Below, piece by piece: positions 215 to 38,760 of a stretch of 45,782 nucleotides of DNA. Below the pieces are notes generated by a model. That model did not search any database. It saw nothing but the letters and a program-made list of their open reading frames with translations, and was not told the origin of the DNA. Numbering within the stretch: position 1 is the stretch's first letter; each line of letters begins with the position of its first letter. The position numbers and the translations under genes are program-made. Origin of the DNA: Candidatus Poribacteria bacterium (lineage in GTDB: Bacteria; Poribacteria; WGA-4E; WGA-3G); NCBI GenBank assembly GCA_009841255.1, contig VXMD01000051.1, positions 1 to 45,782 of the forward strand, given 5' to 3'.

Positions 215-3200
215 TTATGTGATAATCAACCACGTCACCAATTTGAAATTACCTGTATCTTTAGGGGCTTTGGAGGCGGGTGTAAGTCTGGCATCGCGAG
301 GACTCCCGCTTTTCAAAATTTGGCTCTGTGTCTTGGTATGCGATCGCGTGATATGCGAAATAACGGCGTCTAAAAGTGTGTTGTAATGTGTCATGTTATC
401 GCCGTATTCCGTTTCTTGGTCAAACCAGAGACACAGATCCTCTATGGCGTTCTCTTTGCCAACGGCAGATGCTTCAAACAGATCCAACACCTGTTTAGCA
501 TTGATACACCCGTAACGGATATCCCCACTGTTTCGGATGTAAACGGCATAGTAAGGATGGATGGGACTGGCAGTTTTCTGCTGTTTATCTGTGCTTGCGT
601 TTGTTTGTTGAAGAAAGAAGATGACGCCGTTTTCTGTGGGATTGTTTTCGTTGTTGGTAACGGCATAAGCACCATCGGGTGTTGCCTCAAGTTTTGCCCT
701 GTTTCTTTCGAGATACTTGAGGAGTTGTGCGAAGAAATAATCCAACGTAAAGTCGCTCATGACTACACCGTCAGAGAGGTCATCTAAATCGAGCACCTCT
801 TCACGGAGTTGCTTCAATTGCTCGTCGCGGAAGTTGAGTTCCATCTGTGCCTGTTCGTAAGCCCATTCGTTCAACGGATCGTCATCGCCGCTTGCGGTGG
901 CATCAGCGAGTGCCATGCGAGACTCAACGCGATTGCGTAAACGGAGATAGACCTCCATGTCTTCTGTGGGCCAATAGTTAATCATCTTGACCGAAATGTT
1001 ATTGCTCCCGATCCTGTCAATCCGCCCGAACCGTTGAATGATGCGGACGGGATTCCAGTGTATATCGTAGTTTAGGACGGTATCGCAATCCTGAAGATTT
1101 TGTCCCTCTGAGATACAGTCTGTCGCAATAATCAGATCTATCGTGTCGCTGACCTCATCAGAACGTCCTCTTGCGCGGGGTGCAAAATTCGTGAGGATAT
1201 CGTTGAATTTATTTTCTCCGCAGGTCGTTCGCGTGCTATCTCCAGAAACCAGTGCTATATTCAGATCTAATTCCGATGTGAGTTCAGATAAGTTATCATA
1301 GAGATATTCTGCCGTATCCTTGAAGGTCGTAAAGATAAGCAACTTGCGATTGGGGTTTTCGTCCTTATCTTTTACAGGGTTTAGTACCTTGTCTCGGATA
1401 TGCTTTTTAATCTCTTTCAGTTTTCCATCTCTTTCCGGTGTAATGGACTTGACTTTATGCCATGCAGCGGTTAAGGTCTGTTTATCCTTGATAATGTCCT
1501 GTTTCCATCGGATGCAATCCAATTCTTTGAGATGGTAGGGATTTCTGGCACGATTGATTAAAAATTCCTCATCGTCTTCATCGTCATCCGGGAGGACATC
1601 TGCGCCTGCGTCCGCTATATTGCTGTTTTTCTGAAAGCGGTCAATCTTGTTGAGCATCTCATCGTGTTTGTCGATGGTGCGTTCAAGTGTTTCAGAGAGG
1701 GAGTAAGCCGAACTTTCCAGCCGTTTGAGGAAGTTGGTCTGCATCATGCCGATGAGGAATTTCTCACGGTCCGCCTGATTGAAACGGAACCGCTCTTTCT
1801 CATCTGCCAACCGCTGCTTGGCTGTTTCTGCTACAACGTAACTTGAAGGTCTATAGATGGACAACTCAAAATCACCTATCTGATCCGCCAACGCTTTATA
1901 TGAAAGTTCACCGGATAGGTCGGTAGGTGGGTGGCAATTGACTGGATCCAGTTGCGTGGGGAATTCACCAATTTTTTCTATTTCTTCGGCATAGTATTTT
2001 ATGATATGCCTTCGGGAACGCGCGATAGAAACGCCACCGAGCAGTTGGAAAAATTCGGAGCCTAACGTATTAAATAATTCTGTCTTATCTCTTGTGCCAT
2101 CTTTAGGTGAATTTTCCTCCCACGTCTTGAAGGCTTTTTGTGCCTGTCGTATTAAAGTGCGGATATTGCTGACCCCCAGACTGTTTCTAAAGACATCCTC
2201 GCGTTTTTCTGTCATGAGATATATCTGATTGCGGAGGTCGGTGAGTGAAGTATTCACGGGTGTGGCGGAGAGCATCAGCACTTTGGTTTTTGTGCCTGCC
2301 TTGATAACTTCTTCTAAGAGGCGGGAATAACGGCTATGGCGGAGGTTGCCATCTTTGTCCTCACGGGGTTTGGTATCGTTTCGGAAGTTATGGGATTCGT
2401 CGATAACAATCAGATCAAAATTCTGCCAATTGAAATTAACAAGATCGATGTCTCCGGATTTACCTGTATGACGGGACAGGTCGGTGTGTGAGAGTAAGGT
2501 GTATCCAAATTTATCATCAAGGAACTCATTAGAGGCTTGTGAATTATAAGCGGGATAGAGTGCCCAATTTTCTCGGAGTTTTTTGGGGCAAAGCACAAGC
2601 ACGCGTTCGTTTCGCAATTCAAAGAACTTTATCACGGCGAGTGCCGTATATGTTTTTCCTAACCCGACGCTATCAGCTAAAATACAACCGTTGTGTCGCA
2701 ACAGCCGAGCAATAACACTTTTCGCGCCCTCTTTTTGAAAGTCGTATAACTTGTCCCAAATTTTTGTGTCGTATAGATGGACATCCTCAAGGGTCTGTTC
2801 GTTCGTTTTTCGGGTCTCAATTTCTTCACGGAAAAGTTCGTAGAGGGTTTTGTAATAGACGAGTTCGGGCGGGTAGTCTTGCCCTATCTGCTTCAGTTTT
2901 GCGAGGACTTTATTTTTCACATCTTCAACGAGTTCATCGTTATTCCAGAGTTCATCAAACCACGCCTTGAGGTCAGTCCGGTCTCGGTCGCTATCGACCT
3001 CAAGATTAAGTTCGATGTTGCTGTTACTTGAACTGAGTCCGAGTCCGCGCACCGTAAAGTTGGAGCTACCGAGAATTGCTTTGTCAACGCCGTTATTGGC
3101 GATGTGGTACATTTTTCCGTGTATCAGATTTGATTCGCGGGTTGTGCGGATTTCTACCTTCTCTTTTATCCATTTGGCACACGCTTTGGCAATCGGTTTC

Positions 3201-3493
3201 TGTCGGAGTTGCTGGTTGAGTGCTAAACCTGTATCCGTTATGTCAAACGCTTTTTGATCTGTATTGTTCGGATCCATACGTTTGACAAAATCGGGGTCTC
3301 CAAAAAGGAAACGGAGTTCCTCTATTTTATCCATGGCGTGTTGCATCTTTTCGTAGGCATAGATGGTGAAGTAGGCGGATACGATGGAGAGTGCGGAACC
3401 GTTCTTAATTTCCTGTTCTAAAAAATCGTGGACTGTTTCACGGAGAAGGTTATCTCGGATACCGGATTTTAGGGATGCGTTTTTGTTTGACAT
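215..3493 (-). CDS. PLD-domain SNF2-type helicase (1092 aa)
   Basis: This is a large nucleic-acid-dependent ATPase with an N-terminal phospholipase-D-like nuclease domain. The PLD part shows H125-x-K127 followed by GSSN at 142-145, the usual HKD-type signature. The SNF2 part shows Walker A GLGKT near 277-281, DESH at 365-368, SATPVN at 409-414 and a C-terminal helicase lobe with a QRFGRIDRIGS motif VI. The start ATG at 3493 is preceded by AAGG, which overlaps the stop codon of the upstream Uma2-type nuclease gene, so the two genes (gap 13 bp) should be one transcript. Helicases with PLD nuclease domains occur in anti-phage and DNA-repair loci (for example the separate SNF2 and PLD proteins of DISARM). 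The role here is inferred; no methyltransferase or other defence partner is visible, and the left neighbour is outside the window. Confidence 0.85.
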   Translation of the reverse strand: MSNKNASLKSGIRDNLLRETVHDFLEQEIKNGSALSIVSAYFTIYAYEKMQHAMDKIEELRFLFGDPDFVKRMDPNNTDQKAFDITDTGLALNQQLRQKPIAKACAKWIKEKVEIRTTRESNLIHGKMYHIANNGVDKAILGSSNFTVRGLGLSSSNSNIELNLEVDSDRDRTDLKAWFDELWNNDELVEDVKNKVLAKLKQIGQDYPPELVYYKTLYELFREEIETRKTNEQTLEDVHLYDTKIWDKLYDFQKEGAKSVIARLLRHNGCILADSVGLGKTYTALAVIKFFELRNERVLVLCPKKLRENWALYPAYNSQASNEFLDDKFGYTLLSHTDLSRHTGKSGDIDLVNFNWQNFDLIVIDESHNFRNDTKPREDKDGNLRHSRYSRLLEEVIKAGTKTKVLMLSATPVNTSLTDLRNQIYLMTEKREDVFRNSLGVSNIRTLIRQAQKAFKTWEENSPKDGTRDKTELFNTLGSEFFQLLGGVSIARSRRHIIKYYAEEIEKIGEFPTQLDPVNCHPPTDLSGELSYKALADQIGDFELSIYRPSSYVVAETAKQRLADEKERFRFNQADREKFLIGMMQTNFLKRLESSAYSLSETLERTIDKHDEMLNKIDRFQKNSNIADAGADVLPDDDEDDEEFLINRARNPYHLKELDCIRWKQDIIKDKQTLTAAWHKVKSITPERDGKLKEIKKHIRDKVLNPVKDKDENPNRKLLIFTTFKDTAEYLYDNLSELTSELDLNIALVSGDSTRTTCGENKFNDILTNFAPRARGRSDEVSDTIDLIIATDCISEGQNLQDCDTVLNYDIHWNPVRIIQRFGRIDRIGSNNISVKMINYWPTEDMEVYLRLRNRVESRMALADATASGDDDPLNEWAYEQAQMELNFRDEQLKQLREEVLDLDDLSDGVVMSDFTLDYFFAQLLKYLERNRAKLEATPDGAYAVTNNENNPTENGVIFFLQQTNASTDKQQKTASPIHPYYAVYIRNSGDIRYGCINAKQVLDLFEASAVGKENAIEDLCLWFDQETEYGDNMTHYNTLLDAVISHITRSHTKTQSQILKSGSPRDARLTPASKAPKDTGNFKLVTWLIIT

Positions 3494-10580: not shown

Positions 10581-10603
10581 GGGCGAGGTTACCTCGCCCC
10601 TAC
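10577..10603. terminator. 27-bp palindrome between convergent genes
   Basis: Two 13-bp arms (GTAGGGGCGAGGT and its complement) are separated by one T. The left arm contains the TAG stop of the cytochrome gene (10578-10580) and the right arm contains, on the other strand, the TAG stop of prmA (10600-10602). It is a member of the stem-variable repeat family and may act as a bidirectional transcription barrier, although no U tract follows. Confidence 0.6.
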
Positions 10604-11496
10604 AACATAGCAGCTGGACTCAGAACGGCTTTTATGCCTACCCAAATAACTTTATCTTCTGCTTCGCGCACGACCTCAAGACATTGGAACCGATGTGCTT
10701 CTAAAACTGACTGAACCTGTGCCAGCTCAGTCTCCAAAATCCCCGAGAAAATGACAATTCCTTCAGGATAGAGTCGCTGTGCGCAGGACGGAATCATCGG
10801 GAGAATTGCCTTCGTTAGAATGTTCCCCATGATGAGATGGTATCTGTTTTCTGTTCCTTTGAGTCCATCGCTTTGCGATAAATATACCTGTGATGCCACA
10901 CCGTTTGCCTGAAAATTGGCGGCTGCAACAGGGACTGCTGTCGCATCGATCTCAATCGCGTCAACGTGTTTTGCGCCTAACTTGAGGGCAGCAATTGTTA
11001 AGATACCTGAGCCTGTCCCGATGTCAGCGACGCGTTGGTGCGATTCGACGGTGTGTTCCAATAGTTCGAGGGAGAGTCGTGTGGTCGGGTGATAACCTGT
11101 TCCAAATGCCATGCCCGGATCGAGTTGAATCAAGATTTCCGTTTCGTTGTGGGAAACATCACTCCACGTTGGGGCAATAATGATTCTTCTGCCAACGCGT
11201 TGCGGCGGGAATGCGGATTTCCATGCCTCTTCCCATTTCTCGGATTTGATATGTTTTAAGTCAATCGTTGCGGGATGTGGTTGGATACCCCATGTTGGCA
11301 GTTCTGCAAGGAAGTCGCGAAGTTTCTGCATCCGTGCGCCCACTCTGTCATCTAAAGGATAGTGGGCGATGAGATGGACTGTGGACACCTCAGTGTCCCT
11401 GAATTCAACGCCGGTTGCATTTAACTCAAAGAGAAGATTCGCGACGGCTTCTGATGCCTCTTGAGAGGTCGTTACCGTGATTCTTGCCCAGTCCAT
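10600..11496 (-). CDS. prmA: Ribosomal protein L11 methyltransferase
   Basis: 298 aa. PrmA trimethylates lysines and the N-terminus of ribosomal protein L11 using SAM. It has the small N-terminal L11-recognition domain (MDWARITVTTSQEASEAVAN) and the catalytic domain with LDPGMAFGTGYHPTT, VADIGTGSGILTIAA (SAM site) and MGNILTKAILPMIP, all family hallmarks. The length matches the family (about 293). The leader derives from a dispersed repeat (CCGCAAGG then an AT-rich spacer then ATG), and the last residues and stop are encoded by the palindrome at 10577-10603. It is downstream of dnaJ but separated by 172 bp of repeats. Confidence 0.93.
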   Translation of the reverse strand: MDWARITVTTSQEASEAVANLLFELNATGVEFRDTEVSTVHLIAHYPLDDRVGARMQKLRDFLAELPTWGIQPHPATIDLKHIKSEKWEEAWKSAFPPQRVGRRIIIAPTWSDVSHNETEILIQLDPGMAFGTGYHPTTRLSLELLEHTVESHQRVADIGTGSGILTIAALKLGAKHVDAIEIDATAVPVAAANFQANGVASQVYLSQSDGLKGTENRYHLIMGNILTKAILPMIPSCAQRLYPEGIVIFSGILETELAQVQSVLEAHRFQCLEVVREAEDKVIWVGIKAVLSPAAML

Positions 11497-11668: not shown

Positions 11669-12790
11669 CTATTCAGATTCGTCATCTTCGTGCCTGCCGA
11701 GTAACTTATCCCAGAATCCGCCGTGTTCGTTCTGATGGGATTCGCCGCGCAGTTTCGCAAATTCTGCTAACGTTCTTCGCTCTTCTGCATTGAGATTTTT
11801 GGGTGTCTCAATCTCTATCCTTACAACCAGATCGCCTGAATAGGAGCGTCCGTAATGTGGAACGCCTTTATTCGGGATACGGAGTTGTGCCCCGTACTGT
11901 GTACCCGGTGGAATATCGAGTTCTTCGGTTCCATCAATACTATTAACTTTGATTTTCCCACCGAGGGTGGCTTGGACGAATGAGATTTTGGTTGATGTAA
12001 TAAGGTCGTTTCGGTCGCGTTGGAACCGTTCGTGGGGTTCGACATGGATAAGGACGAACAGATCACCCGGAGGCGCGCCACTTACACCTATTTCGCCTTC
12101 GCCGCGCAGTTGGTACCTGAAACCTGTATCAACGCCTTTGTCAATGTTTAACTTAATGTCGCGCGTATTTCGAACAACACCTCTTCCACTACAGGACTGA
12201 CAGGGTTCCTGAATAATTGTACCCGCCCCACGACATCTCGGACACGTTCGCGACATGGTGAAAAAACCGTGTGATTGGGTGATTTGCCCTCTGCCGTGAC
12301 ATTGCGGACACGGTGCGGGATTCGTTCCCTGTTTGGCACCACTCCCTTCACATGTAGGGCATGCTTCAATCCGTGGTACTTGGATGGTGACCTCTTTGCC
12401 GTGAATAACATCACCCAATGTTACCTCAAGGTTATATTGTAAATCGCGTCCCTGTTTGGGGGACCGCCGCGCACCACCGAATCCTCTAAAGAAATTGCCA
12501 AGGACGTCATCGAAAACTTCGTCAAGGTTCATTCTAAAGTCTCCGAAGTCTATACCCATGCCCTCCAATCCTGCGTGCCCGAGCCTATCATAACGGCTCC
12601 GTTTTTCAGGGTCTCGCAGGACTTCATAAGCCTCTGTGGCTTCCTTGAATTTATCTTCGGCGACTTTATCACCCGGATTTTTATCAGGATGGAATTGTAT
12701 AGCGAGTTTGCGATAAGCCTTCTTTATTTCGTCTTCATCGACCTCACGATTAACGTTCAAAATCTCATAATAGTCGCGTTTTTGCGTCAT
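11669..12790 (-). CDS. dnaJ: Chaperone protein DnaJ
   Basis: 373 aa, the type I Hsp40 co-chaperone that stimulates DnaK ATPase and delivers substrates. The J domain carries HPD at 34-36. This is followed by a Gly/Phe-rich segment and the zinc domain with four CxxCxGxG motifs ([32 protein letters not shown]), then two beta-sandwich C-terminal domains. Length is normal. grpE lies 18 bp upstream on the same strand; dnaK is not in the window. The unit probably starts at the promoter before the GGGP synthase gene. Confidence 0.95.
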
Positions 12791-12808: not shown

Positions 12809-13666
12809 CTATTCGGTAGTATCGGTAGCGTCTGTATCATCCGACACGTTTTCTGATGTTTCTTCTTCGGCAGTTCCCTGTGAGACGACAACTTGAGAGG
12901 CGCGTAGAACCCGGGTATGCAGCATGTAGCCACGCCGAAAGTCCTCAATAACTGTTCCCTCCGGCACGTCATCTGATGCCGTGACAAGGAGTGCCTCGTG
13001 CTGATTTGGATCGAATGTTTCACCAACCGCTTCAATCGGTGTAAGTCCATGGATTTTAAGGGCGTCTAAGAATTGTTTATGGACGAGTTGCACGCCTTCG
13101 TTGAAGGTCGTAAAAGCCGGTGAAGTATCGCTCGTCTCGTGCTGTTCTGCTGCACTTTTAATCGCGGCTTCCAGACTGTCCAAGACCGGGACCATCCCTT
13201 CTAAAATTCCTTCGTTAGCGAATTTGAGTTGCCGCTGATAATCGGCTTGCAAGCGTTTTTTGGTATTTTCAGCTTCTGCTGCTGTGCGTAGGAGACGATC
13301 GCGTTCCGTCTTGTATTCCTCATGCACCTGTTGCACAGCCGTTTCTACCTCTTTTTCGATTTCTGTTTGCAATAATTCTTCGCGTTCTGTTTCGTATTGC
13401 CCACGCACCCTTTGAACGATCGCCTCTACTTCTTTTTTGACTTCCGAGGAGAGGTTAGCAGCCGTTTCTTCAACAGGCGCGATGCGTTCTTCTATCTCCT
13501 TCTTCACTTCCGATTTAACTGTATCAAGCGCCGTCTCCGCGATTTCTCGCATCCGTTCGACAATCGTTTTTTCGTTACTGTCGGTGGAATCGTTATCGTC
13601 AGACGCTTCTGTATCAGTAACCTTTTCTACTTCCGCGTTTATGTGTATCTTTTTAACTTCAGCCAT
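12809..13666 (-). CDS. grpE: Nucleotide exchange factor GrpE with long N-terminal coil
   Basis: 285 aa. The C-terminal half has the GrpE signature: RLQADYQRQLKFANEGI, a coiled-coil hinge, VHKQFLDALKIHGLTPI, FDPNQHEALL and the beta-wing VIEDFRRGYMLHTRVLRAS. The first 150 residues are very acidic, Glu/Thr-rich and predicted coiled coil, about 90 residues longer than in E. coli GrpE (197 aa). It releases ADP from DnaK. AAAGGA precedes the ATG. It sits between the GGGP synthase gene (62 bp upstream) and dnaJ. Confidence 0.93.
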   Translation of the reverse strand: MAEVKKIHINAEVEKVTDTEASDDNDSTDSNEKTIVERMREIAETALDTVKSEVKKEIEERIAPVEETAANLSSEVKKEVEAIVQRVRGQYETEREELLQTEIEKEVETAVQQVHEEYKTERDRLLRTAAEAENTKKRLQADYQRQLKFANEGILEGMVPVLDSLEAAIKSAAEQHETSDTSPAFTTFNEGVQLVHKQFLDALKIHGLTPIEAVGETFDPNQHEALLVTASDDVPEGTVIEDFRRGYMLHTRVLRASQVVVSQGTAEEETSENVSDDTDATDTTE

Positions 13667-13728: not shown

Positions 13729-14475
13729 TTAGCCGTGAACGGCGTTAGCGAATGCCCGCATCAGCTCCAGGGATCCGTTTTCTTCGAGAACGTTCCCTGT
13801 GACGATGAAATCTGCACCTGCTTCTACCTTTTGAGCGGCAATTTCTGGTGTGCGGATGCCGCCACCGACGATAAGCGGGATGCTGATTTGATTTTTCACG
13901 GTTGTAATCATTTCCTCTGAGACAGAATGCATAGCTCCGCTCCCTGCCTCCAGATATACCATTTGCATGCCGAGATACTCGGCAGCCAATGCGTGTGGTC
14001 CCGCAATGTCGGGTTTATCGCGTGGAATAGGCGTTGTCCCACTCATAAATTCAACGGCGGTTTTGTTACCGCCTTCAATCAGCATATAGCCGGTTGGGAT
14101 CGGTTTCAGGGCGTAGCGTTGGATCCACGGTGCGGCTTTGACCTGTTCGCCGATGAGATAGTTCGGGTTGCGTCCACTGATGAGGCTGATGTACAGAATG
14201 GCATCCGCGTGGGGGGTGAGGTGCATCGAATCGCCTGGAAATAACACCAGCGGGAGTTCTGTTTCCTGCTTCAGGGCTTTCGCAATAAGGTGCAAATCGT
14301 TCGTTAAGAAACTGCCACCGAGCAAAATTGCGTCTGCACCCGCCTGCTCTATTTCGCGTGCAAGTTTGACGGATTTTTCAATTTCACACTGCTCCGGATC
14401 GATTAGAACGAAATAACCAGCATGGTGCTTTTTCAATACCTCGTGAAAGTAGTTAAGAACCCAATTTGATCTCAA
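13729..14475 (-). CDS. Geranylgeranylglyceryl phosphate synthase (GGGPS-like)
   Basis: 248 aa TIM barrel that joins an isoprenyl diphosphate to sn-glycerol-1-phosphate, the first committed step of archaeal-type ether lipids. Diagnostic stretches are FVLIDPEQ near the N-terminus, DAILLGGSF, PLVLFPGDSMHLTPHADAI, LYISLISGRNPNYLIGEQVKAAP, KPIPTGYMLIEGGNKT, YLEAGSGA and IVGGGIRTPE. The SLISGRNP-YLIGEQ signature fits the bacterial/archaeal group II GGGPS rather than Bacillus PcrB. The start is a TTG at 14475 with AAGGA upstream; no ATG is available. It heads a unit with grpE and dnaJ and has its own promoter. The next enzyme of the pathway is encoded at 15991-16836; glycerol-1-phosphate dehydrogenase is not in the window. 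Confidence 0.85.
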   Translation of the reverse strand: MRSNWVLNYFHEVLKKHHAGYFVLIDPEQCEIEKSVKLAREIEQAGADAILLGGSFLTNDLHLIAKALKQETELPLVLFPGDSMHLTPHADAILYISLISGRNPNYLIGEQVKAAPWIQRYALKPIPTGYMLIEGGNKTAVEFMSGTTPIPRDKPDIAGPHALAAEYLGMQMVYLEAGSGAMHSVSEEMITTVKNQISIPLIVGGGIRTPEIAAQKVEAGADFIVTGNVLEENGSLELMRAFANAVHG

Positions 14476-14538
14476 ATGCGATTTTTCCTTCTTTGCATGT
14501 TCTAAATCTCGGTTTGAATGCTGTGCCCTTATCTGGTA

Positions 14539-14560
14539 TTGAGGACTTATGAATCCTCAA
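14539..14560 (-). promoter_or_regulatory. 5'-leader hairpin of the GGGPS transcript
   Basis: TTGAGGA (14539-14545) and TCCTCAA (14554-14560) form a perfect 7-bp stem with an 8-nt loop. It would lie within the first 30 nt of the transcript from the promoter at 14573-14601, where it could stabilise the mRNA 5' end. Confidence 0.4.
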
Positions 14561-14572
14561 ATTATTTTAAGA

Positions 14573-14601
14573 ATTTTATCATATTTATGTTGATTTGTCA
14601 A
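14573..14601 (-). promoter_or_regulatory. Sigma-70-like promoter for the GGGPS-grpE-dnaJ unit
   Basis: On the minus strand TTGACA (14601-14596), 17 bp, TAAAAT (14578-14573). The -35 box overlaps the stop codon of the upstream methyltransferase gene (14598-14600). The match and spacing are near ideal, so the GGGPS gene need not depend on the long upstream cluster. Confidence 0.7.
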
Positions 14602-15818
14602 ATTCTGTGTTGCCGCGTGAGTTCATAAAGTAGAACACCTGCGGCAACACCTACGTTGAGTGAGGATTGTCCGGATGCCATAGGAATGCGAACTAATTCC
14701 GTGCAGCATTCACGTACATCCGCAGAGAGACCTTGATTCTCGTTCCCTACAACGATAGCCGTGGGAGGTGTAAATTCCGTTTCATACAGTTGGTTTTTGG
14801 CACTTGCGGTTGCCCCCAGCACTTGCCAACCTGAAACTTTGAGTGCATTAATTGCACCACCGATGTCTGGTGCGCAGAATAAGGGTAAACGCCCAATCGC
14901 GCCCCGGGAGGCACGGATGCAGTTTTTATGAAAGGGGCTTGCGCCTTCGCTGCTCAATAGGACCCCGGATACACCTGCGGCGTCGGCGGTCCGTAGCGTC
15001 ATTCCGAGGTTATCGGGATTCCCAATGTTCTCTGCGATGAGTAATATACATCTCGGACTAAAGTGAAAATTGAGACTTCCGGATGCCGAAAGGAACTTGG
15101 GATAACTGAGATGAACTGAGGCGATTATAGATGGAACGGGGCGCGTCGTCGTAATTGAACCCATCACGCCGTCATTTACCTGATAAGAAGATAGGTTTTC
15201 TACCGTTGCACGCGTGAGCAAGGTTTTCCCTTCGAGTGTTGCCACAAATCCGGGCGTATAGAGAAGTGTTTTGATCGGGAGTCCATCTTCTACTGCCCGT
15301 TCTACTATCAGAGGGCCTTCGATGATAAATTGTGAGTGTTCAAATTTTCCTTTCAGAGAGGCTAATTTACGAATATGTGATACGATTGCATCCTTGCGTT
15401 TGGAGACGGTTCGTTGTTCGGCTCGTGTGCTGCTGCCGCGTTTGATGCCCCGATAGAAGGAACCGGCATCGGTTTGAAGGACGTCCCCTTCCAGAACATC
15501 TTGGATTCTGTTTTCTATCCACTTTTCACTGAGCGGAAATAGCGCTGTGTATCGTCTCGGAAAAGCGATGAGTAGTTCTCTCAAGCTTCGTTCGGTCGCC
15601 GTTGTGAGGTGAACGTGGTAGTCACTGTCAAATGTGTCCGCCGGTTCTAACAACATGACGCCATCAAGTTGTTGCCAACCTGTAACAAATATCTGGTATG
15701 CAGGGTGCCATGTGCCCGTTTTGCAGAAGGTGTGATACGCTTGTTTAAAACGGGAAACGGCATCCGTATCCGAACTTTTTTTCTCCAAAAAGGCGATAAT
15801 TTCATCGTAATTTAGCAT
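14598..15818 (-). CDS. TrmH/SpoU family RNA methyltransferase with extra N-terminal domain
   Basis: 406 aa. Residues about 165-406 are a SpoU methylase: a substrate-binding domain, then LLIAENIGNPDNLGMTLRTADAAG (motif 1), AIVVGNENQGL (motif 2) and IPMASGQSSLNVGVAAGVLLYEL (motif 3), the trefoil-knot SAM site that 2'-O-methylates tRNA or rRNA. Residues 1-150 form an additional domain I cannot place (WHPAYQIFVTGWQQLDGVMLLEP, then FPRRYTALFPLSEKWIENRI). I take the ATG at 15818. The longer open frame to 16019 is translated repeat DNA. There is no clear Shine-Dalgarno because a TTAACTGACAAC-type repeat fills the leader. Confidence 0.8.
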   Translation of the reverse strand: MLNYDEIIAFLEKKSSDTDAVSRFKQAYHTFCKTGTWHPAYQIFVTGWQQLDGVMLLEPADTFDSDYHVHLTTATERSLRELLIAFPRRYTALFPLSEKWIENRIQDVLEGDVLQTDAGSFYRGIKRGSSTRAEQRTVSKRKDAIVSHIRKLASLKGKFEHSQFIIEGPLIVERAVEDGLPIKTLLYTPGFVATLEGKTLLTRATVENLSSYQVNDGVMGSITTTRPVPSIIASVHLSYPKFLSASGSLNFHFSPRCILLIAENIGNPDNLGMTLRTADAAGVSGVLLSSEGASPFHKNCIRASRGAIGRLPLFCAPDIGGAINALKVSGWQVLGATASAKNQLYETEFTPPTAIVVGNENQGLSADVRECCTELVRIPMASGQSSLNVGVAAGVLLYELTRQHRI

Positions 15819-15850
15819 GGGTGATGAGTTGTCAGTTAAGAGGCTTTTGT
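15819..15850. repeat. AGTTAAGAGG-family repeat
   Basis: GTTGTCAGTTAAGAGGC followed by a TTGTTAAACC segment. The same units occur at 18590-18633, 33818-33885, 45070-45112 and 45529-45782. It forms the leader of the SpoU methyltransferase gene. Confidence 0.55.
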
Positions 15851-15990
15851 TAAACCGAAGCGCGCAGCCCGTAAGCGTAGCGGAGGTGTTTTTACTTGGG
15901 GTTTTTGCTTGGGTGTTTCTGCGGATTTCCCCTAAATCTACGGAAAGGCACGTCAAACTTGAAACCGACCTGACCGAACCGCAAGAAAAG

Positions 15991-16836
15991 TTAAAAAGAA
16001 CCGAGATAGATTGCGCCAAGTCCGACGAATATGTCCCATTTCATCCAACGTTGGATGGACGCACAACTTTCTCTGGAGGCATCTTGATACAGACGGATTG
16101 CTAAACCTATTAGCACTAAGTCAACACCGATCAGGACGACAATCAAGTAGTGCCATGAATACCAACCGAATACATAAGGGACAGGACTAAACAGAATAAC
16201 AGATACCATGAAACCGAGGGCTATCCGGATGGCGATTTTGGGGTTGAGTGTAGCAAGCGTTTTCGCGTCATTTTTCTCGTCGCCTTCTATATCCTCAAGG
16301 TCTTTAACGATTTCTCGCGCCGTTGTGAATAAAAAAGCAAAGATTGCTGGGATGAGTGTGCCTTGCGCGGAATCTATCGCTACGCCTCCAGCAATGAAGG
16401 TTAAACCCGTTAATCCGCTGACGACTAAATTGCCGGCAAACGGAGTGCGTTTCAGCCAGAAAGCATAACCTACGAGTGCCACGAACACAAGAATGGCAAT
16501 GCCTGTTGCGTTTCTGTTGATGAGAGTTCCCAAATAGATGCCGATTGCCGCGAGGCTTATCGCAAAGATGAGGGCATTGGTACGCCGAATGCGTCCAGAA
16601 GGTAAGGGGCGCCGCGGGCGGTTGATGCGGTCGATGTTATAATCACAGTAATCGTTTATGGCGTTCCCGGCGGAAAGTAGGACGAGCGCGGAGATAGAAA
16701 CCAACAGGAGTCGGATATCGACGAGGTTTTCCATATTCCCTTGATTAGCGAACATCCCACCGAGCCATGCCGAGATGAAGGCGATGATGCCGTTAAGTGG
16801 ACGTGCCAACTCAAGATACGCGATCAGTGTCTTCAT
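15991..16836 (-). CDS. UbiA prenyltransferase, archaeal DGGGP synthase type
   Basis: 281 aa, membrane protein with about eight hydrophobic helices. First Asp-rich motif: AGNAINDYCDYNIDRINRP followed directly by RRPLPSGRI. Second: DLEDIEGDEKNDAKTL. These bind the prenyl diphosphate through Mg2+. The N-terminal LARPLNGIIAFISAWLGG and the NRP-RRPLPSG context match digeranylgeranylglyceryl phosphate synthase, which adds the second isoprenyl chain to GGGP. Menaquinone or chlorophyll UbiA relatives are the alternative. I place the start at the ATG at 16836: the protein begins MKTLIAYLELARP and the 65 residues upstream in frame are out-of-frame lpxD sequence. The gene therefore overlaps the end of lpxD by 26 bp. 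Its stop TAA lies in a CCTTGCGG-type repeat end. Confidence 0.82.
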   Translation of the reverse strand: MKTLIAYLELARPLNGIIAFISAWLGGMFANQGNMENLVDIRLLLVSISALVLLSAGNAINDYCDYNIDRINRPRRPLPSGRIRRTNALIFAISLAAIGIYLGTLINRNATGIAILVFVALVGYAFWLKRTPFAGNLVVSGLTGLTFIAGGVAIDSAQGTLIPAIFAFLFTTAREIVKDLEDIEGDEKNDAKTLATLNPKIAIRIALGFMVSVILFSPVPYVFGWYSWHYLIVVLIGVDLVLIGLAIRLYQDASRESCASIQRWMKWDIFVGLGAIYLGSF

Positions 16837-17878
16837 CCGCCAGCTCTTGAAGTTTCGCTTCCAGTTCCGCAACCCGTTTTTGGAGTTTCGTAAATTCGGG
16901 GAGCAGTTCGGGCAATTTCCGAGTCGCCGCGTGAATTCGTAATTCCTGTTTATGAGGACGTGCGGGAAATCCGGACAGATGACTGCCGGCCGGCATATCC
17001 TTTGTAACTGCGGATTTGGCGTAAACGACACTGTCTTCGCCGAGGGTTAGATGTCCTGCTGCGCCGCCATGGCCCGCGATATTTACGCGATCCCCGAGCG
17101 TCGTACTACCAGCGATCCCGACTTGTGCAGCGAGGCAGCAATCTTCCCCGACGACAACGTTGTGTGCGATTTGGACGAGGTTATCCAGTTTGGTGCCGCG
17201 TTTAATAAGCGTTTCAGAAAGGGTCGCTCTATCAATAGTCGTATTCGCCCCAATTTCAACGTCGTCTTCAATCACCACGGTTCCGATTTGTGGGATCTTG
17301 TGGTGTCGGTTGCTAACGGGTGCGAATCCGAATCCGTCACTACCAATAACTGCTCCGCAGTGGATAATCACCCGGTTCCCGATGGTTACCTCCTCTCGAA
17401 TACTGACATGTGGGTAGATAAGACCTTCGGCACCGATTTTTGTTCCTTCGCCGATGTAGGCAAAGGGTTGAATAACCGTATCATCTCCAATTTCAACGTT
17501 GTCAGCGATATAGGCAAATGCCTGGATCGAGACGCGCTCACCGATTTTAACGTCCTTTCCTAAAATTGCGGTCTCATGAACTCCGGGGAGTGCGCGATGG
17601 TTTTTGTCCCACGCGAACATTTCTATAACTTTGACGAAAGCCCAATAGGGATTCTCAACACAGATCGTCGGCTTACCGTTACCATTGACGCCGCGACCAA
17701 TAATAATTGCGCTGGCTTGTGTTGTCGCTATAGCAGCGAGATACTTGGGATTAGCGACAAAGGTAATTTGACTTGGAAGTGCTTCTTTGATTCCAGAAAC
17801 GCCTGTAATTTCGATATCACCGTCCCCAGAAAGATCGCCATCCAAGCGTTCACAAATTTCCTTGAGTTTCATACGCAT
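16811..17878 (-). CDS. lpxD: UDP-3-O-acylglucosamine N-acyltransferase
   Basis: 355 aa (E. coli 341). LpxD adds the N-linked 3-hydroxyacyl chain in lipid A biosynthesis. An N-terminal uridine-binding domain is followed by a left-handed beta-helix of hexapeptide repeats (IGDDTVIQPFAYIGEGTKIG and on) with GSDGFGFAP and the catalytic His at 239 in LVQIAHNVVVG, plus AGHGGAAGHLTLG. It ends in a C-terminal coiled coil (FTKLQKRVAELEAKLQELADE). AGGAA lies 7 nt before the ATG at 17878. It follows skp and bamA, the usual bamA-skp-lpxD order, and overlaps the prenyltransferase gene downstream. Confidence 0.95.
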   Translation of the reverse strand: MRMKLKEICERLDGDLSGDGDIEITGVSGIKEALPSQITFVANPKYLAAIATTQASAIIIGRGVNGNGKPTICVENPYWAFVKVIEMFAWDKNHRALPGVHETAILGKDVKIGERVSIQAFAYIADNVEIGDDTVIQPFAYIGEGTKIGAEGLIYPHVSIREEVTIGNRVIIHCGAVIGSDGFGFAPVSNRHHKIPQIGTVVIEDDVEIGANTTIDRATLSETLIKRGTKLDNLVQIAHNVVVGEDCCLAAQVGIAGSTTLGDRVNIAGHGGAAGHLTLGEDSVVYAKSAVTKDMPAGSHLSGFPARPHKQELRIHAATRKLPELLPEFTKLQKRVAELEAKLQELADEDTDRVS

Positions 17879-17961: not shown

Positions 17962-18519
17962 TTATTCAGAGTTTTCGTTCTTTTCGTTCATCAAGCCGAT
18001 TAACTGTTGTGTCAAATCGTATTTTTCTTTCACATAAAGTGTGATGAGCCGTTTTTCGAGGATGATGTCAAAGTTTTCGGATTCACCGACTTTGACAATC
18101 AGTTCCTGCAGTCTGTTGTAAATCGGTTCCATTAACTCTTGCTCTTTTTCAAGCAATGCTTGCTGACCGATCTCGACCTCCCGTTGGTATTCCTGTTGTT
18201 TGAGGCGAATTTCGTTATCCATATCTGCAGTCTGTGCTCTTTCGACGAAGAGTTCAGTTTTCGCTTTCTTTTCTTGTAGAGTTCTGATCTCGTCTCCTAA
18301 CTGCTGCAACTTCGTTTTCAAGCGTTCACTTGCCGCTTGGAGGAGCTCGGTGGCATCTGTTGCTTCTTTGGATCCTTCTAAAACCTCCTGTGTGTTTACG
18401 ACACCGATTTTGAAAGATTCCTGCCCGATACTTCCCGAACTGAAATAGAGAACTGTAAGACCGATAATTAATAAGAGTGTTAGGCGTGCTGGGTAAGCAC
18501 CCAACCGAAATGGTTTCAT
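17962..18519 (-). CDS. skp: Periplasmic chaperone Skp/OmpH family
   Basis: 185 aa with a signal peptide (residues about 1-33, LTLLLIIGLTVLYFSSGSIGQ). The mature part starts with the beta strand IGVVNTQEVLEGSKE and continues as a long charged coiled coil (ERLKTKLQQLGDEIRTLQEKK...), the tentacle architecture of Skp/OmpH. It holds unfolded outer-membrane proteins for BamA. AAGGAA precedes the ATG. bamA lies upstream, separated by a 258-bp repeat-filled gap, and lpxD lies downstream. Confidence 0.9.
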   Translation of the reverse strand: MKPFRLGAYPARLTLLLIIGLTVLYFSSGSIGQESFKIGVVNTQEVLEGSKEATDATELLQAASERLKTKLQQLGDEIRTLQEKKAKTELFVERAQTADMDNEIRLKQQEYQREVEIGQQALLEKEQELMEPIYNRLQELIVKVGESENFDIILEKRLITLYVKEKYDLTQQLIGLMNEKNENSE

Positions 18520-18777: not shown

Positions 18778-21240
18778 TTAGAAACCGGGACCAACCGTGA
18801 AATGGAATTTGCCAGCGGGTTCACCGGTGACGCGATCCAAGCCATACCCCCAACCCAACCGAACTAACATGCCGAGCATGGTGAACCGAGCCTCAAGACC
18901 GAGGCCACGTTTCATATTGATTTGGCTGAAGACGTTTGTAACGCTTTCATCCCACACCTGCCCTATATCAAAAAATAGGGCGGCTGTGAGTTGCTGAGAA
19001 ATTGGGACACGATACTCAAAGTTTGCAAAGAATACCTTATCACCACCGTAGGGATTGATAAAACCGTTTTCATCTGGATCCGGATAAATCTCCCAATCTT
19101 CATAGCCACGAATGCTATCTACACCGCCGAGGAAAAAGCGTTCATAGAACAGAAAATAAGCATCGTTGCTTTCACTTCGCATGATACCTGCGCGCCCATG
19201 CACGGCGATAACGTGGTTCCACCATCCACTGTAAAACCAACTCGTGTCCGCATAATATTTTTGGAACTTGTTGTCTGCTCCAAGGATACCCCCGGAGTAT
19301 TCATAAGAGAGTGTGTGAAATGAACCCGCTGTTGGATCAAACAGGGAGGTTCGATAATCGCGGGTGTCCCTTCCGAGTGCGAACAGAATACTTCGTGTAG
19401 AGCGGTTGTAGAGTTGCCGATCCGGGTTGTGTGATTCTACATGTTCATTCCGGAAACGCACGGACAAATCAATGTCATGGGCAATGGGTCTACCGAGGGT
19501 GAGTGATGCCCCGCGTCTCGCCCAAATGTACCGGTCGTATAGACCGTATGGGGAGTTACTTCCCAGACTCCGACGGTTATAGAGGGCACCGATCGTTCCA
19601 TAGTAGCGACGGAATCGTCGATTGTCATAGATTCGAGCGTTAAGCCGAGTGGGTGTTCCCAAAATCCAAGGGGTTCCAAAACTGAGTTCGGCTGTATGGT
19701 GATCTCTTGTACCTAATTCGCCTTTTAAATGCACCCGATATGCTTGTCCGCGAAAGTTGTTTTGTCCGACCTCTGCGACGCCGAAGATACCGCCTTCGCT
19801 GCCATAGCCACCGCCGAGACTTAACATGCCTGTTCGTGGCGTTTCCGCTATATTGACTCTTAACTCTTTTCGGTTATCTTCAGAGGTATCACTTGGGACA
19901 AAATCAACAGCACGAATGAAAGAACCCATCTGGAACAAACGTTGACGCGCTTTGCGCAGGGATTTTACATCTAATAACTCATGGGATTTGATGTTCAAGA
20001 AGTCCAATTCACGTTTAACGACGTGTTCTTTCGTTTTTTCTAATCCGGTAATGATGACCTTGTCAATAATTATGACATCTCCTTCGTTGATTTTCAAGGT
20101 AATGTCAACCACACCCTCGGTCTCATTAAAAGTGGGGATCGGTACGACTTCTGAAAGTAGGTAACCTTTATCGAGATAGGCTTGCTGTAACTTTGCAATT
20201 GATTCGTCGAAAGTGGCGCGGTTAAAAGCCTCACCTTCTGCAGGGTCGAGCATCCCGCGTACCTTTTTATCGGAAAAGAGTTTCTTGGCGCCGGCTTCCA
20301 CTTCGAGTGTATAGCTACCGATAATAAATTCGGGACCTTCGTCAATCGTGATGTCGAGCATTAAACCCGTCTTATCTTCTGTGAACTGTTTCTCGTAACC
20401 GATGACCTTCACCTGTGCAAAGCCTCGGTCCTGATAATAATTTCGAAGGTTCAGGGATAGGTCTTCTTCTTCAAACAACATCTGATCGAAGGGTTTGCCG
20501 ATGCGGGTTTTGAGTTTCTTTCGGAGTGTATTTGCCGAGATTTGTGTATTTCCAATAAAGTTGATCTCCTCAATTCGCACCCGGGGGCCTTCGTTTATCT
20601 CAAACGTGACTTGGACGGTATTTTCCTCTTCATCTTTATCGCCGAGATGGGTTTGGATGCCGGCAAGATAATACCCCTTTTCATGATACAGTTTCTGTAG
20701 GGCTTGCTCGCTTTCCCATCGTCGCTGATCGCTGTAAATTTCTGAGGGGCGGAGTATAATTTCATCCTTAAGTTTACCGGTACCCAGATTTTCGTTTCCA
20801 ATAATGTTAATTCCAGAGATTTTTGGACTTTCGATGACCTTGTAAATGATTTCTAATCCGCCACCTTCAAACGGCTCTACATCTACTGTGAGTTCAGAGA
20901 AGAACCCTGTATCTTTGAAGAGACTTTTCAGATCTTGCGTGAGGAGTTCTTCGGAGACTTCCTGACCGACCTGTGTCTGAATAAGAGTGCGCAACATATC
21001 TTCGGAGCTCGTTTTCACGCCCACAAAAGAGATTTTCTTGACAAGCAGCATTGAATCGCTAGCAGGTTCGGAGGTGTCTGCTGTGTCCTCTTTATCAGGT
21101 GCGGTTTTTGCCTGCTGTTCGGTAAGGGTAGCTGCCTGGGGACCAAATATAGGTGTTTCGGTTTCTTCTGCAAAAGCGATGACCGCTACAAGTCCGATGA
21201 ACAGACTTATCAGAATAAAAACGTTCTTTGGCGCATTCAT
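18778..21240 (-). CDS. bamA: Outer membrane assembly factor BamA
   Basis: 820 aa: signal peptide (residues about 1-24), five POTRA domains (roughly 60-440) and a C-terminal 16-stranded Omp85 barrel. The barrel has the conserved loop-6 type motif GVDSIRGYEDW (IRGY in place of VRGF) and ends in a terminal Phe (FHFTVGPGF). BamA inserts beta-barrel proteins into the outer membrane. I chose the ATG at 21240: AGGAGGAG lies 8 nt upstream and a signal peptide follows at once. The open frame continues 23 codons further but without support. It is followed by skp and lpxD. Confidence 0.95.
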   Translation of the reverse strand: MNAPKNVFILISLFIGLVAVIAFAEETETPIFGPQAATLTEQQAKTAPDKEDTADTSEPASDSMLLVKKISFVGVKTSSEDMLRTLIQTQVGQEVSEELLTQDLKSLFKDTGFFSELTVDVEPFEGGGLEIIYKVIESPKISGINIIGNENLGTGKLKDEIILRPSEIYSDQRRWESEQALQKLYHEKGYYLAGIQTHLGDKDEEENTVQVTFEINEGPRVRIEEINFIGNTQISANTLRKKLKTRIGKPFDQMLFEEEDLSLNLRNYYQDRGFAQVKVIGYEKQFTEDKTGLMLDITIDEGPEFIIGSYTLEVEAGAKKLFSDKKVRGMLDPAEGEAFNRATFDESIAKLQQAYLDKGYLLSEVVPIPTFNETEGVVDITLKINEGDVIIIDKVIITGLEKTKEHVVKRELDFLNIKSHELLDVKSLRKARQRLFQMGSFIRAVDFVPSDTSEDNRKELRVNIAETPRTGMLSLGGGYGSEGGIFGVAEVGQNNFRGQAYRVHLKGELGTRDHHTAELSFGTPWILGTPTRLNARIYDNRRFRRYYGTIGALYNRRSLGSNSPYGLYDRYIWARRGASLTLGRPIAHDIDLSVRFRNEHVESHNPDRQLYNRSTRSILFALGRDTRDYRTSLFDPTAGSFHTLSYEYSGGILGADNKFQKYYADTSWFYSGWWNHVIAVHGRAGIMRSESNDAYFLFYERFFLGGVDSIRGYEDWEIYPDPDENGFINPYGGDKVFFANFEYRVPISQQLTAALFFDIGQVWDESVTNVFSQINMKRGLGLEARFTMLGMLVRLGWGYGLDRVTGEPAGKFHFTVGPGF

Positions 21241-21305
21241 GATCGAATCTCCTCCTGTGTGCTGTAGGCGTTTCCATGCTCGTGTAGGTGTGGTGTGGGA
21301 CCCTG

Positions 21306-22187
21306 TCATGCTTCAGCAGTGTAGATTGGCGTGCCACAACTATGTGCGAACTGCCGGAATGCAGCGATGAGTTTTTCTGTCACCTTTCCAGGCTGCCCAT
21401 CCCCAATGGCGCGTTGATCTATTTTCACAACGGGTATGACCTCGGCGGCTGTGCCGGTTAAAAAACATTCATCTGCGATGTAAAGATCGTGGCGTGTGAA
21501 AACGCGCTCTTCAACTTGCATGCCAGCCTCACGCGCCAGATCGATAACACTATTCCGGGTTACGCCTTCCAAAATACCCATATGAACCGGTGGCGTTACA
21601 AGGACATCGTTCTTTACCCAGAAAATATTATCGCCACTACATTCAACAACGTAACCTTCTGCGTTAAGCATCAATACTTCTTCTGCCCCCGATTGTTTCC
21701 CTTCAATTTTGGCTAAAATATTGTTTAGATAATTCAGGGACTTAATGCGCGGGTTAATGGCTTCTGAATAGTTCCTTCGGACAGAGGCAGTTACGATTTC
21801 CAAACCTTCTTCATAGAATTTTTGTGGGTACAGGGTGATTTTATCTGCAATAATAATGATGCTCGGCTTTGGACATTTATCGGGATCGAGTCCGAGATCG
21901 CCGACGCCGCGCGTTACAACCAATCGAATATAGGCTTCACTGAGACGGTTTAGACGGAGTGTTTCCAGAACCGTTTCCTTCATCGTTTCAATAGGGATAG
22001 GGATCTGCAACATGATTGATTTTGCAGAATCGTAAAGTCGTTCAAGGTGTTCGTCGAGTTTAAAGACTCTACCATTGTAGGAACGGATGCCTTCAAAAAC
22101 GCCGTCGCCGTAGAGTAAACCGTGATCGAACACCGAGACCTTTGCTTCTGCTTTTGGTAAGAATTCTCCGTCGATATAAATCAACAT
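21306..22187 (-). CDS. ilvE: Class IV aminotransferase, IlvE-like
   Basis: 293 aa PLP enzyme, most like branched-chain amino-acid aminotransferase. Landmarks are MLIYIDGEFLPKAEAKVSVFDHGLLYGDGVFEGIR, the PLP lysine in RIKSLNYLNN, EEVLMLNAEGYVVECSGDNIF, GILEGVTRNSVI and FLTGTAAEVIPV. It transfers the final amino group to Val, Leu and Ile keto acids; D-amino-acid transaminase and ADC lyase are relatives, but the GDGVFEG and TGTAAEV contexts favour IlvE. AGGAGG precedes the ATG within a leader shared with lolC. It lies between lolD and bamA, which looks like positional rather than functional linkage. Confidence 0.85.
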   Translation of the reverse strand: MLIYIDGEFLPKAEAKVSVFDHGLLYGDGVFEGIRSYNGRVFKLDEHLERLYDSAKSIMLQIPIPIETMKETVLETLRLNRLSEAYIRLVVTRGVGDLGLDPDKCPKPSIIIIADKITLYPQKFYEEGLEIVTASVRRNYSEAINPRIKSLNYLNNILAKIEGKQSGAEEVLMLNAEGYVVECSGDNIFWVKNDVLVTPPVHMGILEGVTRNSVIDLAREAGMQVEERVFTRHDLYIADECFLTGTAAEVIPVVKIDQRAIGDGQPGKVTEKLIAAFRQFAHSCGTPIYTAEA

Positions 22188-38650: not shown

Positions 38651-38760
38651 CCCACACGCTAAAGCGTGGGGAAACTTGTGCTTCCTCGCGGTAAGCGTTC
38701 TTCCCGCAGGTTGAACGTCTAACAACCGCTCCACTTTAGGCAGCCAAGCCTGCCCGTTTG
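38651..38760 (-). ncRNA. Putative TnpB guide RNA (omega/reRNA) region
   Basis: In TnpB systems the guide RNA is made from the 3' end of tnpB and the right end. On the minus strand this region contains CCTGCGG/CCGCGAGG (38710-38684) and CCCCACGCT/AGCGTGTGGG (38671-38651) hairpins, after which the guide would read flanking DNA. RNA production is inferred from family knowledge only. Confidence 0.45.

Follow-up and report, generated by a model that had tools for sequence, protein, structure and literature searches.

The window analysed here, the whole 45,782-nucleotide stretch of Candidatus Poribacteria bacterium contig VXMD01000051.1, carries on its minus strand the genes of two ether-lipid enzymes of archaeal type, a geranylgeranylglyceryl phosphate synthase (GGGPS) and a UbiA-superfamily protein resembling digeranylgeranylglyceryl phosphate synthase (DGGGPS). 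It forms contig C51 of a genome assembled to 5.73 Mb in 87 contigs, with 96% completeness and 3.3% contamination, and NCBI lists the Poribacteria among the candidate phyla of Bacteria incertae sedis. We found both genes, with the motifs quoted for them, where a preliminary description of this DNA had placed them. That description called the genes consecutive in its title and separated by one gene in its text; the text was right, as a SpoU-family RNA methyltransferase gene (14598-15818) lies between them. Profile matches, structure matches and the distribution of the two genes indicate that in most Poribacteria the pair probably forms the ether bonds in a glycerolipid pathway of archaeal type.

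The minus-strand gene order is ilvE-bamA-skp-lpxD-DGGGPS-SpoU-GGGPS-grpE-dnaJ-prmA. From bamA to dnaJ the intergenic gaps are 18-258 bases, and DGGGPS and lpxD overlap by 26 bases. A scan of named genomes with the window GGGPS protein, in which up to 6 kb of each flank was fetched, gave 46 loci (the named loci below), all titled Poribacteria and several of them records titled as chromosomes. The genes of the block are as follows.

13729..14475, minus strand: GGGPS, group II-like, 248 amino acids, TTG start (TIGR01769, NF003198)
15991..16836, minus strand: UbiA-superfamily DGGGPS-like protein, 281 amino acids, ATG at 16836 (6m31, PRK12884, PRK12882)
14598..15818, minus strand: SpoU-family RNA methyltransferase, between GGGPS and DGGGPS (PF00588, 4.6e-35)
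16811..17878, minus strand: lpxD, lipid A acyltransferase (TIGR01853, 374.2 bits, cut-off 242.5)
17962..18519, minus strand: skp/OmpH-like periplasmic chaperone (PF03938, 1.1e-24)
18778..21309, minus strand: bamA, outer-membrane protein assembly factor (TIGR03303, 405.6 bits, cut-off 297.15)
21306..22187, minus strand: ilvE-like branched-chain aminotransferase, upstream end of the block as followed (TIGR01122, 344.2 bits, cut-off 245.55; position kept in relatives)
12809..13666, minus strand: grpE-like gene downstream of GGGPS, named by eye (relative in 45 of the 46 named loci)
11669..12790, minus strand: dnaJ-like gene, named by eye (relative in 44 of 46)
10600..11496, minus strand: prmA-like methyltransferase, downstream end of the block as followed, named by eye (relative in 41 of 46)

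The names ilvE, bamA, skp, lpxD, SpoU, UbiA and GGGPS are based on profiles, and grpE, dnaJ and prmA were named by eye. The profile matches confirmed that lpxD, skp and bamA adjoin the pair, as had been described. The neighbourhood recurs in the named loci, with DGGGPS in 41/46, SpoU in 42/46, lpxD in 37/46 and grpE in 45/46; several of the missing neighbours belong to loci that end at a contig end. LpxD is the sole step of lipid A synthesis that was profiled, and genes resembling lolC/E and lolD, together with lnt, were recognised by eye in the window's list of open reading frames only.

The GGGPS protein of the window passed the GGGPS equivalog model TIGR01769 (227.8 bits, cut-off 161.55) and NF003198 (289.7 bits, cut-off 247), and scored just 38.3 bits on the heptaprenyl PcrB model NF003197 (cut-off 260). 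The E value of the GGGPS profile match, 4.9e-49, means that it is not due to chance. Its best solved relatives were 4mm1 (4.6e-57) and 4jej (5.7e-51), which we take to be the group II GGGPS of Methanothermobacter and Flavobacterium. Alignment to 4mm1 revealed Tyr130, Tyr174 and Glu176, and the Tyr of GYM and the Tyr and Glu of YLEAGSG were invariant in 46/46 named loci; a Tyr/Tyr/Glu set is described as strictly conserved in the GGGPS active site (PMC9385802; here and below, papers are cited for those parts of them that were available). These residues were assigned by motif, and the numbering in the review differed from the printed chain numbering. At the phosphate-binding place, group II enzymes have Thr and group I enzymes Asn (PMC9385802). 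The window protein has Asn, and among 45 loci read there were 42 Asn and 3 Thr. Thus, of the 'group II-type GGGPS' proposed earlier, the GGGPS part stands, and 'group II' describes a likeness to 4mm1 and 4jej rather than a filing, given the Asn. By these matches, the protein would join geranylgeranyl diphosphate to glycerol phosphate.

When the window UbiA protein was compared with solved structures, the best match was the Methanocaldococcus jannaschii DGGGPS 6m31 (2.3e-35, 125.5 bits), followed by chlorophyll synthase (1.3e-6, 31.2 bits), with no other match at E 0.001. The motif and catalytic residues of the M. jannaschii enzyme, N62, D66, D70, Y125, K130, D180, D183 and D187 (PMC9385802), are kept 8/8 in the window and identical in all 41 named loci with the gene, in motifs that are largely common to the whole UbiA superfamily. 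Three other UbiA proteins of the window genome scored 54.9, 20.9 and 62.8 bits on DGGGPS. One, on contig C73, best matched the hydroxybenzoate octaprenyltransferase structure and the ubiA_other/MqnP models, and another, on C82, passed the CyoE model. The third (G000:C48:1777-2697, L102), a distant paralogue, also had DGGGPS as its closest structure, though at 62.8 bits, and PRK12884 (133 bits) as its best profile; it adjoins sulfatase-like and beta-helix protein genes, and relatives of it are listed for many Poribacteria, some of which lack the GGGPS/DGGGPS pair. The window UbiA protein itself is predicted to be the membrane enzyme that adds the second C20 chain.

Next, we profiled the phylum in 84 genomes, counting a gene as present at E < 1e-30, a threshold set by hand, and as absent when weaker. 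GGGPS was strong in 72/84 and DGGGPS in 73/84 genomes; 71 held both genes, 10 neither, 1 GGGPS only and 2 DGGGPS only. The pair lay within 10 kb on one strand, with DGGGPS upstream, in 59 of the 71, and on different contigs in 11, of which G002 is explained by a contig break inside a geranylgeranyl reductase (GGR) gene. In G046 a distance of 3.8 Mb separates the two genes, which share a chromosome and each have their own half of the block. Within the window's genus, 36 of 38 genomes held both genes without an internal stop, and the two exceptions were without bamA too, their block being unassembled. Single losses were scarce. The missing DGGGPS of G017 corresponds to a contig end inside GGR, and G006, without GGGPS alone, is a genome 64% complete; G036 apart, no clean single loss of either gene was found among the 84 genomes. 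A tandem partial duplication was seen within the block at L275 (G027:C128), comprising two SpoU genes, a DGGGPS C-terminal fragment and two GrpE pieces.

The genomes without the pair were informative in two lineages. In G044 the run ilvE-bamA-skp-lpxD-SpoU-grpE-dnaJ-prmA is intact and exactly GGGPS and DGGGPS are gone; neither was found elsewhere in that genome. SpoU was kept there after the pair was lost, and by this evidence lies outside the pathway. In genus g8, both genes are missing from G018-G022, and only G023 holds them. All five pair-less genomes have LpxD, and the run from ilvE to lpxD was seen in the two whose loci were read (G018 and G022). The g8 loss was established by whole-genome searches, the site of the pair being known from G023 only. 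Joint absence in two lineages, with the gene in between spared in one, argues that GGGPS and DGGGPS serve one shared product.

In G023 we found a 2x4Fe-4S ferredoxin gene and a GGR gene between the pair. Examination of 20 genomes outside the window's family that bear the pair or part of it (G001-G009, G011-G017, G023-G026) revealed the order DGGGPS-ferredoxin-GGR-GGGPS on one strand and one contig in 12 (G001, G005, G011-G016, G023-G026). SpoU is also inside this cluster in G013, G014 and G016, and extra sequence lies within it in G005 (~2 kb) and G014 (~4 kb). The same order is interrupted by a contig end in G002 and G017; G006 and G008 have DGGGPS-ferredoxin-GGR with GGGPS absent or elsewhere, and G007 has DGGGPS-ferredoxin at a contig end. 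No ferredoxin or GGR stands beside the pair in G003, G004 or G009, the DGGGPS of G003 reaching a contig end. Pieces of GGR lacking the N-terminus passed TIGR02032 in 3/3 tested; on their best NCBIfam match, the Thermoplasmatales DGGGP-lipid reductase model, they scored 217-257 bits against a cut-off of 780, and the one GGR tested in Pfam matched GGR_cat (PF22578). Among the named loci, ferredoxin and GGR occur in 3 of 46 (L056, L057 and L060, which by identities look like G014, G013 and G015) and not in 43. The simplest history is a loss of ferredoxin and GGR in the window's family, in which the two synthases persisted on either side of SpoU. The relatives with both genes in the cluster should also saturate the chains.

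One flavoprotein of the window genome (G000:C7:29080-30339; L101:7081-8340), of the halogenase/GG-reductase superfamily, was considered as a GGR candidate and rejected. Its best TIGR02032 score (C7:29098) was 141.5 bits against a cut-off of 158.8, it was closer to CmlS-type halogenases and Trp_halogenase, and it had no GGR_cat match. The gene occurs in 72/84 Poribacteria genomes at E 1e-20, and 8 of the 10 pair-less genomes retain it.

The GGR genes of the window's order, which are not in the window, have an unusual codon. At the PVR-x-AE site the codon is TGA in 8/8 readable genomes of the order (G013-G016, G023-G026), which span 6 genera and 3 families (f2-f4), and TGT or TGC in 7/7 more distant genomes (G001, G002, G005, G006, G008, G011, G012). 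The TGA genes are the following.

L202:6500-7732 (G023), L247, L248, L249, L250, L255, L256 and L257: GGR genes with TGA at the PVR-x-AE site

By motif and position, this site equates with a Cys described as present in every archaeal GGR and as essential to the Sulfolobus acidocaldarius enzyme (PMC10821996). The reading frame is otherwise open, and third-position change is equally concentrated on either side of the TGA. A tree of 14 genes, with the truncated G002 excluded, placed the TGA genes in one group, consistent with one change (support 97/96). A possible SECIS-like hairpin lies just 3' of the TGA, with a consensus of -14 kcal/mol and 95.8% of cells paired; 0/500 shuffles paired as highly, and slid copies reached at most 58.3%. 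The Cys GGR genes shared no fold (-0.5 kcal/mol; 41.3% of cells paired). Furthermore, G023 encodes tRNA-Sec (RF01852, 76.6 bits, cut-off 47), SelB (370.7, cut-off 242.25) and SelA (601.1, cut-off 267.9) side by side, as found in the 800 kb read of this one genome; SelD was not found there by pattern. SelA and SelB have been reported for the majority of bins of sponge symbionts, across various phyla (PMC5649159).

Several comparisons weaken the case for the hairpin. Three of its pairs changed on both sides, but 121/500 shuffles reached the same number, and the number of pair types was reached by 454/500. Folded singly, 6 of the 8 TGA genes did better than most of their shuffles, G025 and G026 being the exceptions, and the Cys GGR gene of G001 also folds strongly, though in another way. 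TGA also serves as an ordinary stop in these loci, in 11 of 60 conserved neighbouring genes. Taking the codon, the hairpin and the selenocysteine machinery of one genome together, the TGA of GGR is most likely read as selenocysteine, which would make it a candidate new selenoprotein family. We found no publication on a selenocysteine GGR in the open-access literature searched.

For the rest of the pathway, the preliminary description had pointed to sn-glycerol-1-phosphate dehydrogenase (G1PDH), CarS and GGR as partners to be sought in the genome. A G1PDH-like protein of 350 amino acids is encoded on contig C72 (G000:C72:54817-55869; L100:8821-9870). It is divergent, with 125.7 bits on archaeal G1PDH, and scored 74 bits on glycerol dehydrogenase and 25 on AroB. 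The gene was strong in 39/84 genomes and in 32/38 of the window's genus. Of 30 orthologues fetched from these 39, 27 held, by pattern, three motifs that we take to be metal ligands, 2 lacked the first and 1 gave no match. An AraM-like protein in G004 scored 203.8 bits, better than the C72 protein. A 2016 table, in the part available, seems to list no EgsA/AraM under Poribacteria (PMC5059525). PF13685 was discarded as a G1PDH test, as it matched 84/84 genomes; it is unspecific because other Fe-ADH and AroB-like proteins match, and the ~365-residue proteins matching it looked AroB-like by eye.

CarS did not appear: profile searches of the window genome found no CarS proper, only bacterial CdsA (PF01148, 4.3e-61), with a CarS-like score of just 28.7 bits in the same protein. 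This weak match was rejected as CarS, being the CdsA of a run that by eye resembles rpsB-tsf-frr-cdsA-dxr-rseP. Bacterial CdsA can replace CarS (PMC7852524). A dedicated geranylgeranyl diphosphate synthase was also sought, without a candidate emerging: PF00348 matched two proteins in 16 of 18 genomes, one in G018 and three in G017, and none was clearly lost with the pair. The polyprenyl synthases, of which the window genome has two, fall into types told apart by the residue five places ahead of the first Asp-rich motif, Ala in one and Trp in the other, the second type being perhaps short-chain.

These results can be combined into a scheme, built on homology. Once GGGPS had joined geranylgeranyl diphosphate to glycerol phosphate and DGGGPS had added the second C20 chain, GGR would saturate the chains in the relatives with the four-gene cluster, with electrons from the ferredoxin, as in archaea. 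The window genome has no GGR beside the pair or over the cut-off, so unsaturated diethers are predicted, and the product in the window's family would be unsaturated digeranylgeranyl glycerol phosphate. It would be passed to bacterial CdsA and head-group enzymes and be mixed with ordinary bacterial lipids. In the window's genus the glycerol phosphate is probably sn-glycerol-1-phosphate made by the divergent G1PDH-like enzyme, its source and stereochemistry being uncertain. Beyond this, we lean, with some reserve, towards a history in which the phylum inherited an operon-like DGGGPS-ferredoxin-GGR-GGGPS unit linked to the lipid A/outer-membrane genes. GGR would have become a selenoenzyme in one order, the first such enzyme of membrane-lipid saturation, before the window's family dropped GGR, and that family would now build a mixed membrane with unsaturated isoprenoid diethers.

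A number of observations weigh against the proposed pathway. The window UbiA protein stays below the DGGGPS equivalog cut-offs, with 232.8 bits on PRK12884 (cut-off 269) and 214.8 on PRK12882 (cut-off 296), as do 5/5 other Poribacteria tested; we therefore use 'DGGGPS-like' where strictness matters. In a tree of 14 UbiA rows with long branches its DGGGPS side was supported at just 58/89, so the separation from quinone, haem and chlorophyll enzymes is clear in the scores, where DGGGPS is far above, and weak in the tree. In-frame stops interrupt 2 of the 73 strong DGGGPS matches, a TGA in G004 (L261, G004:C57:21011-21823) and a TAA in G009 (L266, G009:C9:154780-155613); both may be error or decay, and the TGA of L261 may be selenocysteine. 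The C72 protein scored 125.7 bits against archaeal G1PDH, far below the cut-off of 413; its gene has neighbours uninformative on lipids and is absent from 18/18 genomes of genus g3, 15 of which hold GGGPS and DGGGPS. The possible glycerol-1-phosphate source of the window genome is this G1PDH-like gene, below the cut-off and missing from g3. No polyprenyl synthase is tied to the pair, since the pair-less genomes tested keep two, and G018 one. No GGR over the TIGR02032 cut-off was found in the window genome, and none beside the pair, the search having covered this one genome of the family; GGR is found instead in relatives outside the family. As to joint absence, the Fisher p of 2.6e-10 for the 10 genomes is too generous and ignores relatedness. 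Four of the ten are uninformative: G069, G070 and G032 are without bamA too, so that their block is simply unassembled, and G010, with neither gene, is 61% complete, which leaves G044 and G018-G022. G036 is without GGGPS alone.

Set against these points, the earlier inference of archaeal-like or mixed ether lipids together with a lipid A-bearing outer membrane is reasonable and partly supported: the scores, the co-occurrence of the pair and the ferredoxin and GGR of relatives speak for it, and the G1PDH-like gene below its cut-off and the lack of GGR and of a proper CarS leave it weaker. Neither of the outcomes that would have contradicted it, a UbiA protein grouping with quinone or chlorophyll enzymes or a genome with no source of glycerol-1-phosphate, appeared.

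We considered whether the UbiA protein instead prenylates another acceptor, aromatic or quinoline, as EboC/Ubi-297 does, its nearness to GGGPS being incidental. UbiA acceptors vary, and Ubi-297, a DGGGPS-related bacterial enzyme, farnesylates quinolines (PMC9235831); the equivalog cut-offs missed by the window protein would fit as well. However, the protein scored just 83.2 bits on the EboC model (cut-off 250), the genome has other UbiA genes for the menaquinone-type and haem O roles, and the gene is lost jointly with GGGPS and clusters with GGGPS, ferredoxin and GGR in relatives, which makes another acceptor unlikely. About as improbable is the idea that the pair is decaying in the window's family, as the leftover of a pathway whose reductase is gone and which has ceased to make a membrane lipid. 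Ferredoxin and GGR are missing from 43/46 named loci, the window genome has no GGR over the cut-off and G044 lost both genes, all as decay would have it, yet the catalytic residues are invariant and 36/38 genomes of the window's genus hold both genes without an internal stop.

A somewhat smaller chance attaches to the pair running in reverse or in salvage, in the breakdown or remodelling of ether lipids from neighbouring archaea. Degradation has been suggested for FCB-group bacteria without G1PDH (PMC6431249), uptake of glycerol-1-phosphate has been reported for marine bacteria (PMC12718374), and genus g3 has no G1PDH-like gene yet mostly keeps the pair. A reductase with its own ferredoxin in the relatives' cluster fits synthesis and saturation and not breakdown, and the genes sit among envelope genes. 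Contamination of the assembly by archaeal DNA would be conceivable for a draft genome with 3.3% contamination. It is already contradicted by the conserved neighbourhood, since these bacterial neighbours are found again across the 46 named loci (grpE 45, lpxD 37), including chromosome-titled records, and can be given almost no weight. Synthesis of archaeal-type ether lipids remains the reading that we prefer.

Apart from the lipid genes, the window contains three features of note.

27275 to ~28350: RF2-like gene (prfB, by eye), in which a CTTTGA frameshift-like site near 28313 joins two frames
38736-39848: IS605 OrfB/TnpB-like gene (PF01385, PF07282)
215-3493: helicase with PLD-like and NgoFVII-type restriction domains, perhaps a defence gene

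Natural membranes of mixed archaeal and bacterial lipids are a central, still unproven idea for early cells and for the origin of eukaryotes. Published bacterial cases rest mainly on two genes; in the Poribacteria a whole phylum widely keeps the pair and loses it together, and in many lineages the pair is joined by a saturating reductase and its ferredoxin. A selenocysteine GGR, if true, would add a selenoenzyme to those known and offer a natural test of why GGR depends on its essential Cys. Poribacteria are sponge symbionts, so the lipids could be sought directly. Other membrane-spanning lipid genes may add to the picture, as 29 Black Sea Poribacteria metagenome-assembled genomes (MAGs) have Tes homologues in 10 and Mss in 14 (PMC11868695).

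Such genes had been reported from bacteria of the FCB group, as the preliminary description correctly stated. In Cloacimonetes, GGGPS and DGGGPS are co-localized, GGGPS activity was demonstrated and PG-archaeol was made in E. coli (Villanueva et al. 2020, PMC7852524), and a survey of 12 FCB phyla found both genes in every one (Coleman et al. 2019, PMC6431249). The window resembles these cases in having the two genes close together in a bacterial genome, and resembles four Cloacimonetes MAGs in lacking CarS (PMC7852524). G1PDH is described as absent from these four MAGs (PMC7852524) and, among FCB phyla, as present only in Fibrobacteres and Cloacimonetes (PMC6431249). Bacterial co-localization of GGGPS and DGGGPS seems restricted to Cloacimonetes according to the available part of PMC7852524, and the word Poribacteria has 0 occurrences in the main texts, as available, of PMC7852524 and PMC6431249. 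We found no report of GGGPS/DGGGPS in Poribacteria in the open-access literature searched; other papers or a supplement may hold one.

Among related bacterial enzymes, PcrB of Bacillus belongs to the same superfamily and uses a C35 chain (PMC9385802), and the window protein differs from it in scoring 38.3 bits on the PcrB model (cut-off 260) against 227.8 on GGGPS. EboC/Ubi-297 of Flavobacteria is likewise a DGGGPS-related bacterial UbiA (PMC9235831); no ebo genes were noticed by eye in the window's list of open reading frames. Unlike that of Cloacimonetes, the poribacterial cluster stands with lpxD/bamA and grpE/dnaJ, has SpoU inside and, in relatives, ferredoxin and GGR. In Methanosarcina acetivorans, too, GGR and a 4Fe-4S ferredoxin are encoded next to each other (PMC10821996). 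In contrast to the archaeal GGR-ferredoxin arrangement, the one described here is bacterial, lies in one cluster with both ether synthases and in one order has TGA in place of the codon for the essential Cys. The strongest new results are the joint loss of the pair, the four-gene cluster of the relatives and the candidate selenocysteine reductase. Collectively, the comparison indicates that the window pair belongs to a published kind, and that the ferredoxin-GGR cluster and the reductase with TGA are new.

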